Shown here piece after piece: positions 55,686 through 62,735 of a stretch of DNA of 64,000 nt. Made by a program: the position numbers and the translations under genes. The notes beneath the pieces are model-generated. The model had not been told where the DNA came from, did not search any database, and saw nothing but the letters and a program-made list of their open reading frames with translations. Positions within the stretch are counted from its first letter, which is position 1. The number at the start of each line of letters is the position of its first letter. The stretch is from Paludibacter sp. (GTDB taxonomy: Bacteria; Bacteroidota; Bacteroidia; Bacteroidales; Paludibacteraceae): contig JAQUWU010000012.1 in NCBI GenBank assembly GCA_028692715.1, forward strand, positions 26,713 through 90,712, in the 5' to 3' direction.

Positions 55686-55961
55686 AAGTAAGTGGAAATA
55701 ATCCCGATAGCTATTTGGTAGTCGTATAATCAAATAAATAAAATTGATGAATAGCACGCGGATAAACGCTGATATATTGGGTTTTAAAACGGATTCTAAT
55801 TTCGACAAGTCGAAATTGATATTCATCTTATCAGTCATGCTTGCATGACTGAAATCTGTTTTAAATAAGATTAAATATTTTCCGTTCTTATCCGCCCAGT
55901 CCGTGAAAATCCGCGTTCTATTCTTTCTATAAAATACGACATTATAGATGTTCTATTACTT
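55686..55961. repeat. AAGTAA-end dispersed repeat, divergent copy D
   Basis: Starts AAGTAAGTGGAAATAATCCC and ends GATGTTCTATTACTT. The interior keeps AACGCTGAT, ATCCGCGTTCTATTC and AAAATACGACATTAT but diverges elsewhere, including hairpins TTTCGACAAGTCGAAA and CAGTCATGCTTGCATGACTG. It lies directly after MITE copy 3. Confidence 0.6.
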
Positions 55962-55981: not shown

Positions 55982-57571
55982 TTAAATATTCTTTGAAGTT
56001 AAATCCAACAGAAATAAATCCAAATCTTTGGTATGTTTTAGATTCATCTTTTTAGCAATACGTTGTTTCATCTTATAAATTGCTTCCTGAGTAGAATTAA
56101 GTAACATAATCCGGTCTTTGTTAGGTACTTCCAAAAGCTGCAAACAACACCAGGTAATTTCTCTTTTAGTGAGTGTTGGATATTTTTCCTGAAGCAAGGA
56201 AATTATATTATTAAATGCTTTATTCATTTCGCTTTCAAAAGCCTCCCAATTGTAAAGATGCAATTTCTTTTCGTAAATTTTCTTATCCAAGATACTGCGT
56301 TCTTTTTCCGATACCTTAATACGTAAATTAGTATGCATTAGTTTTGCCTCACTCAACCCTTTCGTTAAATGTTGACTAAGAAACGCTTGTTTTGAATGTA
56401 ACTTATCCGTTATCTTTTGTATTTTATCTTTTTTCAACAAGCTACTATTGTAATAAAAATACGCTAAATATGAAATAATCAATACCAGTAATATTAAAAT
56501 AGATGTATTAATAATCAAATCTTTTTTTGCTTTACAAGCTTCGCCGGTTTTATTATGCAAATCCTCAAGTACTATGGCTTTTGTTTGTGATTCGAGAGTA
56601 TGGATTGAGTCTATATTATCTTGATATTTACTCAAGTAATTTCCCATTATCTCTACATTTCCTAGTTTATATTCTGAATTGGCTAATATCCTATAACATT
56701 CTCTTTTTATCAAAAAACTAGTCGGATATGTCAATGCTTTTGTGGAATAATACATTGCCGAATCATATTTTTCCAAATCAAAATAGACATCTCCCAATAT
56801 ATAGCATCTAATCGAATAATTGGTACCACGATATGGATAATGTAAACTATTATTTAAATAATACAAGGCTGAATCCAATATACCTTCTCTATAAAACACA
56901 TCTCCTTTTTCCTGAAAAACCGTTCCAATTATTAATGGATTTTTTGATTGACTAATAGCTGTGTCAAAATACTTACGAGATTCTTGGTTGTTCTTTAAAA
57001 ATCTATAAACACGACCAATATCAATAAGTTTAAAAGTGCTTTCAGTTGAATCTTTTACTTTACGAAAGTATGTTAAAGATAATCCGTATTTAATTAAACC
57101 TTCATTGTAATTATTTTGAAAAGTACAGATATCACCAAGATCCGAATATATCTTTGCAATATAATAGAAATCATCGGACTGTTTTAAAATATCCAAAGCT
57201 AATATATAATAGTTTGTTGCATTATCAAATCTCTGAACTTTTTTAAAGAATCGTGCTTTATAATAATAACAAATGGCTAATTCATGTCCTTCATTCTCTT
57301 TATCATAATATTTCATCGAAAAATTAATTAGGGAATCAGAATTAATTACCTCATTATTTTTATCAAGTGCTTTGTATAAAAGTAAACCGTACAAGGCTTT
57401 GTTCGATTCATTTTTTAAAGATTCAGGATGAATATTTTGAAGAAGTTTTAATGCAGAATCAGGTTTAGTTTTGAGTAACTCCTCGGCAACAGTTAGATTT
57501 GAAGGGATATTCTTACATCCGGCAAAAAGAAATATCAATAAAATATGAAGAAAGAAGAGATGTTTTTTCAT
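55982..57571 (-). CDS. Membrane-anchored TPR protein with C-terminal HTH, paralogue 1
   Basis: 529 residues. Residues 1-19 are a lipoprotein-type signal (IFLFAGC, Cys19). About eight TPR-like helical pairs span residues 25-320. A single transmembrane segment is at about 353-374. A charged coiled coil runs from 378 to 440. A LuxR/GerE-like helix-turn-helix is at about 470-520 (LTKREITWCC, then EAIYKMKQRIAKK). The layout suggests an extracytoplasmic TPR sensor with a cytoplasmic DNA-binding domain. Residues 158-322 differ strongly from paralogue 2 while both ends are nearly identical. Its promoter carries the 415-bp insertion. Confidence 0.85.
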   Translation of the reverse strand: MKKHLFFLHILLIFLFAGCKNIPSNLTVAEELLKTKPDSALKLLQNIHPESLKNESNKALYGLLLYKALDKNNEVINSDSLINFSMKYYDKENEGHELAICYYYKARFFKKVQRFDNATNYYILALDILKQSDDFYYIAKIYSDLGDICTFQNNYNEGLIKYGLSLTYFRKVKDSTESTFKLIDIGRVYRFLKNNQESRKYFDTAISQSKNPLIIGTVFQEKGDVFYREGILDSALYYLNNSLHYPYRGTNYSIRCYILGDVYFDLEKYDSAMYYSTKALTYPTSFLIKRECYRILANSEYKLGNVEIMGNYLSKYQDNIDSIHTLESQTKAIVLEDLHNKTGEACKAKKDLIINTSILILLVLIISYLAYFYYNSSLLKKDKIQKITDKLHSKQAFLSQHLTKGLSEAKLMHTNLRIKVSEKERSILDKKIYEKKLHLYNWEAFESEMNKAFNNIISLLQEKYPTLTKREITWCCLQLLEVPNKDRIMLLNSTQEAIYKMKQRIAKKMNLKHTKDLDLFLLDLTSKNI

Positions 57572-57624: not shown

Positions 57625-57655
57625 CAAATTTACAATTATTACTTAACTTTCGCAA
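57625..57655 (-). promoter_or_regulatory. Hybrid promoter of TPR-HTH paralogue 1
   Basis: TAAATTTG (minus strand, 57625-57632) is the native -7 box, also present in paralogue 2. TTG at 57653-57655 lies at exactly 20 bases spacing but belongs to the terminal repeat of the inserted 415-bp element. In paralogue 2 the same position reads AAAC, with no TTG. Confidence 0.55.
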
Positions 57656-58059
57656 GTTCTCATATAGGGGTTTCCACCCCTAGCCCCGACCTACTTTTTG
57701 CCTTGACGCAAAAAGTAGGCAAAAAAGTCAAGACTACGGCTGCTTCACTCGAAAAACTTACGCTCGGTAAGCTCAAATCGTCCAAACTCATTCCGACGAA
57801 ATACGTCGAAACTCAAACAAGGACGATTTTTAACCGCTTACCTCACTTGTTTTTCGGTTCACCAGCCGAGGTCGCGCATTCAAGAACGACATCGGTATAC
57901 GATAAAACGTATTTTAACTTATAGTAAAAAGATCACAAGAAACTATATACAATATTTATTCGATAAAATAGAATTTTATAACCAGCTCATTATCAATATA
58001 TAAATTTAGATATATCAATATTTATCAATAAGTTAAATGCTTGCGAAAGTTGAGTTATT
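57637..58059. mobile_element. 415-bp MITE in the TPR-HTH 1 promoter (element 57641-58055)
   Basis: Ends ACTTAACTTTCGCAAG (left) and the complement of ACTCAACTTTCGCAAG (right), 15 of 16 matching. TATT at 57637-57640 and 58056-58059 is a 4-bp target duplication. Paralogue 2 keeps the empty site (AATTATTATTAAAT at 59838-59851), which proves the boundaries. Inside is a 12-bp stem hairpin (CCTACTTTTTGC, 57690-57701, with 57708-57719). No transposase is encoded. Confidence 0.9.
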
Positions 58060-58185
58060 ATTAAATAAATCGTTTATACGCCAATGAAAAAAAATGATTA
58101 CTACTCAGTACACGGAAAAAACGGAAAAACTGATTTCCCTAGGAAAACACTGTTTGGTGTTACTTAATTGTTGGTACAAACTGGA

Positions 58186-59775
58186 TTAAATATTCTTTGA
58201 AGTTAAATCTAACAGAAACAAATCCAAATCTTTGGTCTGTTTTAGATTCATCTTTTTAGCAATACGTTGTTTCATCTTATAAATTGCTTCCTGAGTAGAA
58301 TTAAGTAACATAATCCGGTCTTTGTTAGGTACTTCCAAAAGCTGCAAGCAACACCAGGTCATTTCTCTTTTAGTGAGTGTTGGATATTTTTCCTGAAGCA
58401 AGGAAATTATATTATTAAATGCTTTATTCATTTCGCTTTCAAAAGCCTCCCAATTGTAAAGATGCAATTTCTTTTCGTAAATTTTCTTATCCAAGATACT
58501 GCGTTCTTTTTCCGATACCTTAATACGTAAATTTGTATGCATTAGTTTTGCCTCACTCAACCCTTTCGTTAAATGTTGACTAAGAAATGCTTGTTTCGAA
58601 TGTAACTTATCCGTTATCTTTTGTATTTTATCTTTTTTCAACAAGGTACTTTTGTAATAAAAATACGCTAAATATGAAATAATCAATACCAGTAATATTA
58701 AAATAGATGTATTAATAATCAAATCTTTTTTTGCTTTACAAGCTTCGTCGGTTTTATTATGCAAATCCTCAAGTACTATTGCTTTTGTTTGTGATTCGAG
58801 AGTATGGATTGAGTCAACATATTCCTGATATTTCAACAAATACTTTCCCATCACCTCTACATTCCCACGCATATATTCGGTATTTACCAAAATTCGATAA
58901 CATTCTCTTTGAAGAAAATATGTTGTGGGATATTTTAAAGCTTGTTTAGTATAATAAACAGCAGAGTCATAAAGACATTTTTCATAGTAGACATCTCCTA
59001 AAAAAGAACATCTAATTGCATTATTAGTCCCTACAAACGGGAAATTAAGACTTTTCTTTAAATAAAATTCAGCTGAATCAAATTCTTTTGTGTCAAAATA
59101 ATTAATTCCGATTTCTTGTAAAGCAGAGCCATATAACATCGAATCTTTTGTTTCATAGATAGCTTTTCTGTAATTCTTTAGAGCTTCATTGCTGTTTTTT
59201 AGAAACCGATTTACTCTGCCTATATTAACATGTGTATAACTAACTTGTGTTGAATCGTTAGCAATCTGAAAATAGTTTAGAGCCATTTGATATTTTAACA
59301 GAGACTCATTATAGTTATTTTGAATAGAACATATATCACCAAGATCCGAATATATCTTTGCAATATAATAGAAATCATCAGACTGTTTTAAGATGTCCAG
59401 AGCTACTATATAATAGCTTGTTGCATTATCAAATTGTTGGGATTTTCTTAAAAAACGCGCTTTATAATAATAACAAATGGCTAATTCATGTTCTTCATTC
59501 TCTTTATCATAATAATTCATCGAAAAATTAATTAGTGAATCAGAATTAATTATCTCATTATTTTTTTCAAATGCTTTGTATAAAAGTAAACCGTACAAGG
59601 CTTTATTCGATTCGTTTTTTAAAGATTCAGGATGAATATTTTGAAGAAGTTTTAAAGCAGAATCCGGTTTGGTCTTGAGTAACTCCTCAGCAACAGATAG
59701 GTTTGAGGGGATATTCTTACATCCGGCAAAAAGAAATATCAATAAAATATGAAGAAAGAAGAAGTATTTTTTCAT
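58186..59775 (-). CDS. Membrane-anchored TPR protein with C-terminal HTH, paralogue 2
   Basis: 529 residues, the same length and domain order as paralogue 1: lipobox Cys19, TPR array, transmembrane segment near 353-374, coiled coil and HTH. Residues 1-157 differ from paralogue 1 at few positions and residues 331-529 at only a handful, but the TPR part between is extensively changed. The duplicated unit is about 1.7 kb, 58170-59876, against 55972-58088 minus the insertion. Its promoter (TAAATTTG at 59829-59836) has no TTG at -33 spacing. The intact spacer shows the ancestral state of the paralogue 1 insertion site. Confidence 0.85.
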   Translation of the reverse strand: MKKYFFFLHILLIFLFAGCKNIPSNLSVAEELLKTKPDSALKLLQNIHPESLKNESNKALYGLLLYKAFEKNNEIINSDSLINFSMNYYDKENEEHELAICYYYKARFLRKSQQFDNATSYYIVALDILKQSDDFYYIAKIYSDLGDICSIQNNYNESLLKYQMALNYFQIANDSTQVSYTHVNIGRVNRFLKNSNEALKNYRKAIYETKDSMLYGSALQEIGINYFDTKEFDSAEFYLKKSLNFPFVGTNNAIRCSFLGDVYYEKCLYDSAVYYTKQALKYPTTYFLQRECYRILVNTEYMRGNVEVMGKYLLKYQEYVDSIHTLESQTKAIVLEDLHNKTDEACKAKKDLIINTSILILLVLIISYLAYFYYKSTLLKKDKIQKITDKLHSKQAFLSQHLTKGLSEAKLMHTNLRIKVSEKERSILDKKIYEKKLHLYNWEAFESEMNKAFNNIISLLQEKYPTLTKREMTWCCLQLLEVPNKDRIMLLNSTQEAIYKMKQRIAKKMNLKQTKDLDLFLLDLTSKNI

Positions 59776-59870
59776 ATTATTGACCCTTGACTTTAAAAAA
59801 ATTAGTACTAAAAATTAAGTGTTTTATGCAAATTTACAATTATTATTAAATAAATCGTTTATACGTCATG

Positions 59871-61148: not shown

Positions 61149-62735
61149 TTATTTTTCGGTAGATATGTCCTGAAGAAATTGCTCAAATTCTTTGGTGCCC
61201 GAGAGATTAAGTTTTTGAACAATTCGTTGTCTTAATTTATATAAACTAGCCAATTGACAGTCTAATATAATTAATATATCAGTGGTGGGAACTTCAAGTA
61301 AGAGGAGAGAACATAAAATTAATTCTTTACGATTAATATCCGTACTTTTTCCGTATAATACAATAAATAAATTATTAAAAGTTTGATTCATTAATTTTTC
61401 AAACCGACCCCAGTCATCTAAATGTAAACAAAAAGTATATATTTCTATGTCAATTTGTTCTCGCTCTCTAATATCGGCTTTTTTATAACTTGTAGATTTT
61501 GACAATCTAGTTTCTTCTATTTTCTTAATTAAACTTTCTTTTAAAAGGACCTGTTTATTTATCAATTTTATTTCAACATTTTTCAATTGAATATCCTTGC
61601 TTTTACTCCTTTTGCGCAATTTTAAGAAAATAAATATACTCAAAGAAATAATTAGAAGGATAAATGAAATAAGAGCAACAACATATTTTTTTGATTTCTG
61701 AACTGTACCTTTTGTTATATAAATATCTTCTAATACACTGGATTTTGTTTGAATCTCAATTTTTCTTACAGAATCTGTACAATCTTGATATTTTCCCATA
61801 TATAACTCCGTTTTCTTAAAATCTCCTTTTTTATACTCTGTATTTGCAAGTATTCTAAAGCTTTCCCTTTGAATTATGTATGTATTTGGATATTTGAATG
61901 ATAAATTTGAATAATAAATTGCAGATTCATATCTATTTAATCTGTAATAAATATCTGCCAACACATAACATCTTATAGCATAATTTGTACCTTTGAATGG
62001 GTATAACAAACTTTTATTTAAATATATTAGTGCAGAATCGTATTTTGAATCATTATAATAGTTTATACCAATTTCTTGTAAAGCTGCACCATTAACAAAT
62101 GAATCTACTGTTTGAGTTAATGCGCTATTATAGTAAACAAAGGCCTTTTTAAAATTTTTTGATAAACGCCAGACTCTACCAATATCAATTAATTTATATG
62201 ATGTCTCGATTAAATCATTTGCTTTCTGAAAATAGAATTTTGATTGTTGAAATTTTAATAATGCTTCCTTATAATCTTTTTGAAACGAACAAATATCCCC
62301 CATATCAGAGTATATTTTTCCTAACAAATAGTTCTGATTTGAATTTTGAATTAAATCCTGTGCTTTCAAATACAATTCAGTAGCCTTATCAAATCGTTGT
62401 GCAATCTTATATAACCTTGCTTTATAATAATATGCAATGGCTAATTCATTATTTTTAAAGGTGTTTTTATAATAGTTAATTGAAAAATTTATAACAGAGT
62501 CTGCAGGAAGTGAGCTATTTGTTTTATCAAGTGCCTGAAAAAGTAAAATTCCATAAAGCGCACGATTTTCATCGGATTTTAGTTGAGTGTTTTTTATGTT
62601 TTGTAATAAGTGTAGTGCTGAATCGGGGGAAGTTTCTAAAATTTGTTCAGCAATTTTTAATTCATTGGGCGAAGTTACACATCCTGTTAATAACAGAAGA
62701 AATAAATAGATGAATATACGGAATTTATACAGCAT
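61149..62735 (-). CDS. Membrane-anchored TPR protein with C-terminal HTH, paralogue 3
   Basis: 528 residues. Same layout as paralogues 1 and 2: lipobox (LLLLTGCVT), TPR array, a transmembrane segment (residues about 352-374), coiled coil and HTH (INRKELILCS, then ASLYKLRQRIVQK). It is clearly diverged at the amino-acid level over its whole length, so it is an older paralogue. A -7 box (TAGTTTTG, minus strand, 62782-62789) lies 47 bases upstream. It is the outermost gene of the regulator cluster. Confidence 0.83.
   Translation of the reverse strand: MLYKFRIFIYLFLLLLTGCVTSPNELKIAEQILETSPDSALHLLQNIKNTQLKSDENRALYGILLFQALDKTNSSLPADSVINFSINYYKNTFKNNELAIAYYYKARLYKIAQRFDKATELYLKAQDLIQNSNQNYLLGKIYSDMGDICSFQKDYKEALLKFQQSKFYFQKANDLIETSYKLIDIGRVWRLSKNFKKAFVYYNSALTQTVDSFVNGAALQEIGINYYNDSKYDSALIYLNKSLLYPFKGTNYAIRCYVLADIYYRLNRYESAIYYSNLSFKYPNTYIIQRESFRILANTEYKKGDFKKTELYMGKYQDCTDSVRKIEIQTKSSVLEDIYITKGTVQKSKKYVVALISFILLIISLSIFIFLKLRKRSKSKDIQLKNVEIKLINKQVLLKESLIKKIEETRLSKSTSYKKADIREREQIDIEIYTFCLHLDDWGRFEKLMNQTFNNLFIVLYGKSTDINRKELILCSLLLLEVPTTDILIILDCQLASLYKLRQRIVQKLNLSGTKEFEQFLQDISTEK

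Follow-up and report, generated by a model that had tools for sequence, protein, structure and literature searches.

A 413-bp non-autonomous transposon (MITE) is inserted upstream of one of two tandem paralogues in the window, the whole 64,000-nt stretch of Paludibacter sp. DNA analysed here, and its cargo is a fold-conserved module that has several carriers and a wide reach in the phylum Bacteroidota. The most probable account, in our judgment, and a likely one, is that the MITE is moved in trans by an IS4-family transposase and carries a widespread, fold-maintained module that rides on varied transposon ends. The evidence consists of the insertion itself, its copies, insertion sequences (IS) that bear the same ends, the recurrence of the module, the compensatory changes in its pairing, and the several carriers on which it is found. 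Coordinates of the features are collected in Table 1.

Table 1. Features of the insertion, its structured cargo, and the flanking paralogues (window positions).
Feature	Position	Strand	Basis
TPR-domain gene, paralogue 1, insertion in its upstream region	55982-57571	-	TPR Pfam matches
Left target-site duplication TTATTA	57636-57641	.	single copy at the paralogue's empty site
MITE with IS4-type ends, 413 bp	57642-58054	+ (orientation of the structured module as written)	terminal repeats, copies, duplications, empty site
Left terminal inverted repeat CTTAACTTTCGCAAG	57642-57656	+	same ends on IS4_4 IS of sister genomes
Conserved structured module (pseudoknot and rod)	57659-57880	+	recurs in the genus without the element ends; 20/40 pairs with compensatory change
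Hairpin S1 (57690-57701 with 57708-57719), loop CTTGAC 57702-57707	57690-57719	+	folding, alignment consensus
GTCAAG pairing with the S1 loop (pseudoknot helix S2)	57727-57732	+	pair counts in aligned rows
Rod	57733-57873	+	folding, alignment consensus; similar motifs in distant genera
Rod helices	57737-57742/57863-57868, 57750-57757/57849-57856, 57766-57772/57836-57842, 57775-57783/57821-57829	+	
Rod apex motifs AAACTC; CTCAAACA	57784-57789; 57812-57819	+	
Right terminal inverted repeat, CTCAACTTTCGCAAG on the minus strand	58040-58054	-	inverted-repeat comparison
Right target-site duplication TTATTA	58055-58060	.	comparison with the paralogue
TPR-domain gene, paralogue 2, upstream region uninterrupted	58186-59775	-	TPR Pfam matches
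Empty target site, upstream region of the tandem paralogue	59840-59845	.	comparison with the interrupted copy

As an insertion, the element is an ordinary IS4-type MITE with unusually clean internal proof, supported by the neighbouring empty site: TTATTA stands on both sides of the element and once in the upstream region of paralogue 2, which confirms the original prediction of an inverted-ended insertion whose empty site survives in the tandem duplicate. The inverted ends and the target duplication are real, with shifted boundaries. The terminal repeats are 15 bp long (14/15 identical) instead of the predicted 16 bp, and in place of 415 bp and TATT we define a 413-bp element with a 6-bp duplication, because the outer T is missing in copies L004, L006, and partial L013, and the outer A in L008. 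The insertion and duplication together total 419 bp, and the inverted arms (57634-57656 and 58040-58062) are 87% complementary. The element thus combines inverted ends, a target duplication, an empty site, and many copies, and lacks a transposase: no ORF of 60 aa or more is confined to it, and the sole one that runs over it (113 aa) starts outside.

The assembly to which the window belongs (4.85 Mb, 122 contigs) matches the element in 43 places, including 12 over the full length with 94-100% identity, the others being diverged partial matches or contig-edge fragments, so the element is no chance arrangement. A genome-wide search for the ends, proposed earlier as a check, gave 39 occurrences of a 12-bp end motif (0 for the reversed control); the duplications at other copies are AT-rich and ~6-10 bp long, their exact size varying with where the element end is set. 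At three contig edges (C34, C56, and C81), the same end is followed by non-element sequence, which at C34 translates into a 78-residue C-terminal piece of a transposase. This piece finds matches in 12 of 60 genomes, our own included, and complete ISs with the element's ends are present in two sister genomes: L101 (G034) encodes a 481-aa transposase, with end motifs at 5 and 1567, and L092 (G014) encodes a 480-aa transposase with end motifs on both sides. Both proteins score above the cut-off of NCBIfam IS4_4 (NF049925; E=2.8e-115 and 1.9e-118, respectively). Short chance matches aside, the element has only the terminal 16-17 bp in common with these ISs and, since nothing but the ends is common to both, it is not an internal-deletion derivative; on sequence comparison, it is foreign sequence enclosed by IS4-type ends. 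As the IS is visible in this genome only as broken ends at contig edges, we infer, rather than observe, that an IS4-type transposase mobilises the element in trans.

The enclosed sequence is highly structured. The element folds far more stably than its shuffles (z -8.95), and in the module the CTTGAC loop of a hairpin pairs with GTCAAG further downstream to give an H-type pseudoknot, after which comes a long rod. Matches to the element occur in 20 of 60 genomes (own included), chiefly through positions ~22-246 alone, G014 matching at the left end as well. We oriented 61 near-complete modules, of which 40 were non-redundant; 35 of these entered the alignment, with L008, L081, L083, L084, and L119 omitted for their long internal insertions and some of about equal length retained. 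RNAalifold proposed 35 pairs on these 35 rows, 19 with compensatory change, and adding the pseudoknot by hand gave a consensus of 40 pairs and 1389 cells. Of these cells, 95.6% are paired, as opposed to 36-50% when the partners are slid; two-sided changes affect 20 pairs (164 cells), compared with 3-7 pairs (5-17 cells) in the slid controls. None of 500 shuffles equalled the alignment in paired cells, in pairs or cells with double change, or in covariation score, while the number of further pair types showed no excess (33 against a shuffle value of 34.4; 435/500 shuffles as high or higher). The slid control carries more weight than the shuffles because shuffling leaves relatedness in.

Taken by itself, the pseudoknot helix is 94.7% paired, and its 16 compensatory cells are confined to the last pair, which is C-G in 17, A-U in 10, U-A in 6, and unpaired in 1 of the 34 rows with letters; a G-C pair of the helix is unpaired (A-C) in 8 rows. 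Its covariation score is 0.196, against 0.000-0.069 with partners slid, and neither its double-change pair count nor its pair types exceed the shuffles. The compensatory changes support the pairing of the module, although they could also arise from hairpin template switching without selection.

Within the genus, three or more distinct sets of transposon ends enclose the module. Sorting the 61 copies by three end sets found by inspection, namely A (the IS4 type of the element), B (TAGTACATGACAAAA), and C (GATTATCCGCA), places 14 copies in A, 12 in B, and 8 in C, with a single end at 2 and none of the three at 25; among the A copies, twelve are near-identical and represent a single lineage. The copies of our own genome (A 13, B 3, C 5, single A end 1, none 8) and those of its relatives (A 1, B 9, C 3, single C end 1, none 17) both contribute, and 3050 shuffled flank pairs yielded A 0, B 20, and C 4 times. 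Duplications flank several B copies (AAACACAAT in L022, GAAAATTCG in L024) and several C copies (AAAAATTAT in L008, AACTTATA in L030), and are absent from others, such as L023 and L080. A free search for inverted flanks in the 25 copies with none of the three sets singled out L025 and L067 (0/100 shuffles as good) and L026 (1/100), followed by L071 (4/100), the others being unremarkable. The C pattern (3 mismatches) occurs 182 times vs. 51 for its reversed control, and the B pattern (2 mismatches) 36 times vs. 39; because the latter count is no higher than its control, the B ends are defined by paired ends around modules together with the duplications.

The same ends also enclose other cargo. 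In our own genome, palindromic interiors other than the module are found between B ends (L284, with both ends; L280, L283, right end decayed) and between C ends (L312, L319, both C ends), so ends and interiors combine variously. No autonomous partner of the B or C ends was recognised in the 17 loci inspected. One of the alternative interiors on B and C ends is a AACCACGAATT...AATTCGTGGTT palindrome; ends and interiors have seemingly been exchanged. The window itself contains, at 55740-55935, a palindromic repeat ('...GCGGATAAACGCTGATAT...AATCCGCGTTCTATT') judged by eye to be similar to the other B-ended interior (L280, L283).

Beyond the genus, blastn with one module at E<=1e-6 is positive in 8 Bacteroidota genomes out of 395, our own among them, and in six of the seven others the alignment covers only the pseudoknot region. 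The sequence beyond that region shows the succession of pseudoknot and long rod in several of these genomes (L136, L137, L141, L143, and L144), although not clearly in all (L145 and L146). A strict pseudoknot pattern (TTTTGNCTTGANNCAAAAN{4,18}TCAAGNC) occurs in 67 of the 395 sampled genomes and 29 of 171 genera, with 25 occurrences in our own genome; its reversed form had 0 among the matches listed. Same-strand tandem runs with a spacing of 270-464 bp are present in G269, G139, and G127. At L177, L178, L179, and L183, tandem pseudoknot sites on one strand form runs of up to five, with no 100-aa ORF between run neighbours.

A scan of GTDB species genomes with the pattern returned at least 118 stretches, 80 of which we assigned by record title: 70 to Bacteroidota, 6 to Balneolaceae/Rhodothermia, and 4 to others (a Neomarinimicrobiota MAG, a Patescibacteria MAG, a Kuenenia MAG, and Propionigenium maris). 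At the 77 evaluable sites of these 80, the 260 nt after the knot fold at z<-3 in 30 cases, compared with 3 of 76 control stretches. The 300 nt after the knot contain TTAACGC in 27/77 sites and CTCARACA in 27/77, each absent from 52 upstream control stretches (0/52), as well as GCTAAA (30/77 vs. 6/52) and AACTCG (31/77 vs. 6/52). CTCARACA followed by TTAACGC is found at 19 of 132 sites (18 loci) over the at least 118 stretches, with carriers that include Elizabethkingia miricola, Parabacteroides faecis, and several Chryseobacterium. From the 30/77 and the 19/132, we conclude that the rod varies or in many cases is missing; the knot is constant because the pattern search is built on it, and the motif-bearing rod belongs to only part of the family. 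Viral contigs seldom contain the pattern (18 stretches), the L363 module has 0 matches among phage records, and the L381 module partially matches three plasmid records. A Sulfurovum mangrovi plasmid, outside Bacteroidota, carries 54 nt with 89% identity to part of the Elizabethkingia module (NZ_CP087125.1, 61539-61592).

The fold may act as RNA or as single-stranded DNA, and the strand evidence is conflicting. Over 75 copies, the written strand has 2431 Watson-Crick cells, 45 A-C, and 13 G-T, and 34 disjoint nearest-neighbour pairs show 40 compensated changes next to single changes to A-C (27), G-T (8), and other mismatches (14); the count omits the five outer pairs of the first helix, the T-G pair 111/288, and neighbour pairs less than 2% or more than 25% apart. 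The excess of A-C over G-T points to the complementary strand (or its single-stranded DNA), as RNA of the written strand would be expected to show the reverse, whereas the loop lengths of the knot seem to fit the written strand better. The module has no match among the Rfam 15 covariance models at E up to 1, the matches off the module being three weak ones in the window stretch and one to the microRNA family mir-9261 (below the cut-off) in L264. Nor do the 61 copies display a clear gene-orientation bias of the kind expected of terminators (co-directional 19 and 15, convergent 6, divergent 5, undecided 9, within an ORF 7). Literature searches by sequence letters or topic, which left subscription papers mostly uncovered, found no description of the module, the sole match by letters being an unrelated goat gene.

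Three other explanations deserve weighing against this evidence. The cargo might be the inert interior of an ordinary MITE, with palindromes that persist through self-correction of hairpins by template switching. Arm-to-arm copying of this kind would yield the few single-sided G-U cells and many double changes seen here, and the other palindromic interiors on B and C ends also suit it. It sits less well with covariation in the pseudoknot helix, which lies outside a simple palindrome (albeit at one of six pairs only), or with short motifs (CTTGA/TCAAG, TTAACGC, and CTCARACA) that recur across genera, and we consider it unlikely. Far less credible is that the module is an atypical REP belonging to Y1 transposases of Bacteroidetes (TnpA-REP subclass 2.6), with a RAYT moving it as single-stranded DNA. 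Y1 genes are widespread in the phylum (271 of 395 genomes), and atypical secondary structures that have further genomic copies are reported to flank subclass 2.6 genes (PMC6006769). Even so, a relaxed pseudoknot pattern lies beside 0 of 65 Y1 loci (30, plus 7 from our own genome, plus 28) in flanks extending up to 1.5 kb in either direction, and 41 of these loci (6, 7, and 28, respectively) come from pattern-bearing genomes; a RAYT/REP origin is therefore not supported. One RAYT-like gene has a different palindrome at its flanks: L235 in G127, with NHVH and YIHNN motifs, carries CTGGTGCGAGCATCTTGCTCG on both sides, which is probably its REP.

The remaining alternative, which we find rather doubtful, takes the insertion chiefly as a promoter change, in which the element end would supply a -33-like TTG and alter expression of paralogue 1. 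In Bacteroidetes, the -7 box is TAnnTTTG and the -33 box TTTG. A -7-like TAAATTTG (57625-57632, minus strand) is present upstream of both paralogues, and 20 nt upstream of this box the element end brings in CTTG, at the place occupied by AAAC in paralogue 2; the predicted TTG at 20-nt spacing, supplied by the element, accordingly holds. From these sequences, it is possible that the element strengthens or rewires expression of paralogue 1, although the 61 module copies are without clear orientation to genes. The two paralogues (529 aa each; 80% identical in protein, 86% in DNA) had been called TPR-HTH regulators. The TPR repeats stand; Pfam detects no DNA-binding regulator domain at E<=0.1, and 'HTH' and 'regulator' are thus terms of the original prediction. 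A third, more divergent TPR-domain gene adjoins the tandem pair at 61149-62735.

Returning to a fold-maintained module carried by an IS4-type MITE, four known systems come close. STAXI is included in Rfam, unlike the module, which has no match there. STAXI is reported as a pseudoknot in tandem repeats near DNA-handling genes, and it shares with our module both the tandem-repeated knot and the question of RNA or DNA (PMC2864571). The MITEs mobilised by IS4-family elements resemble ours in being short, lacking a transposase, and having IS4-type inverted ends, AT-rich duplications, and many copies; here, however, the interior is not IS-derived, and the module is also found on different ends and in further families of the phylum. 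Among Bacteroidetes MITEs, BrickBuilt and its relatives in Porphyromonas gingivalis likewise have similar ends around unrelated interiors, with predicted stem-loops, but the interior of BrickBuilt is a minisatellite, whereas here one interior has several different ends (PMC4596501). The REPs of TnpA-REP subclass 2.6 are multicopy intergenic structured repeats of Bacteroidetes, and the module differs from them in its ~200 nt with a pseudoknot and its absence beside the Y1 genes examined (PMC6006769).

Under the reading we favour, an IS4-family transposase would act in trans, recognising the 15-16-bp ends of the MITE and making short AT-rich target duplications. The passenger between the IS ends would be a module widespread in Bacteroidota, an H-type pseudoknot with a long rod hairpin after it, that spreads by becoming enclosed in different transposon ends, of at least three kinds in the genus. 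Its fold appears to be maintained more than its exact sequence, presumably because some factor recognises the folded single strand, be it RNA or single-stranded DNA in replication or transposition.

More tentatively, and short of an even chance, these modules may constitute a phylum-wide, undescribed family of folded single-stranded elements, each a pseudoknot and a rod whose internal-loop motifs are conserved, that hitch-hike on unrelated transposases and act by their fold, as RNA or single-stranded DNA, with a dedicated protein partner. Because many copies reside in named, culturable species, the module is directly testable. MITE insertions are common; a fold-conserved module on unrelated ends, from Bacteroidales to Flavobacteriia, is not predicted by the IS/MITE or REP frameworks. 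Should the fold prove functional, the module would represent a large, unnoticed class of structured elements in a major gut and environmental phylum.
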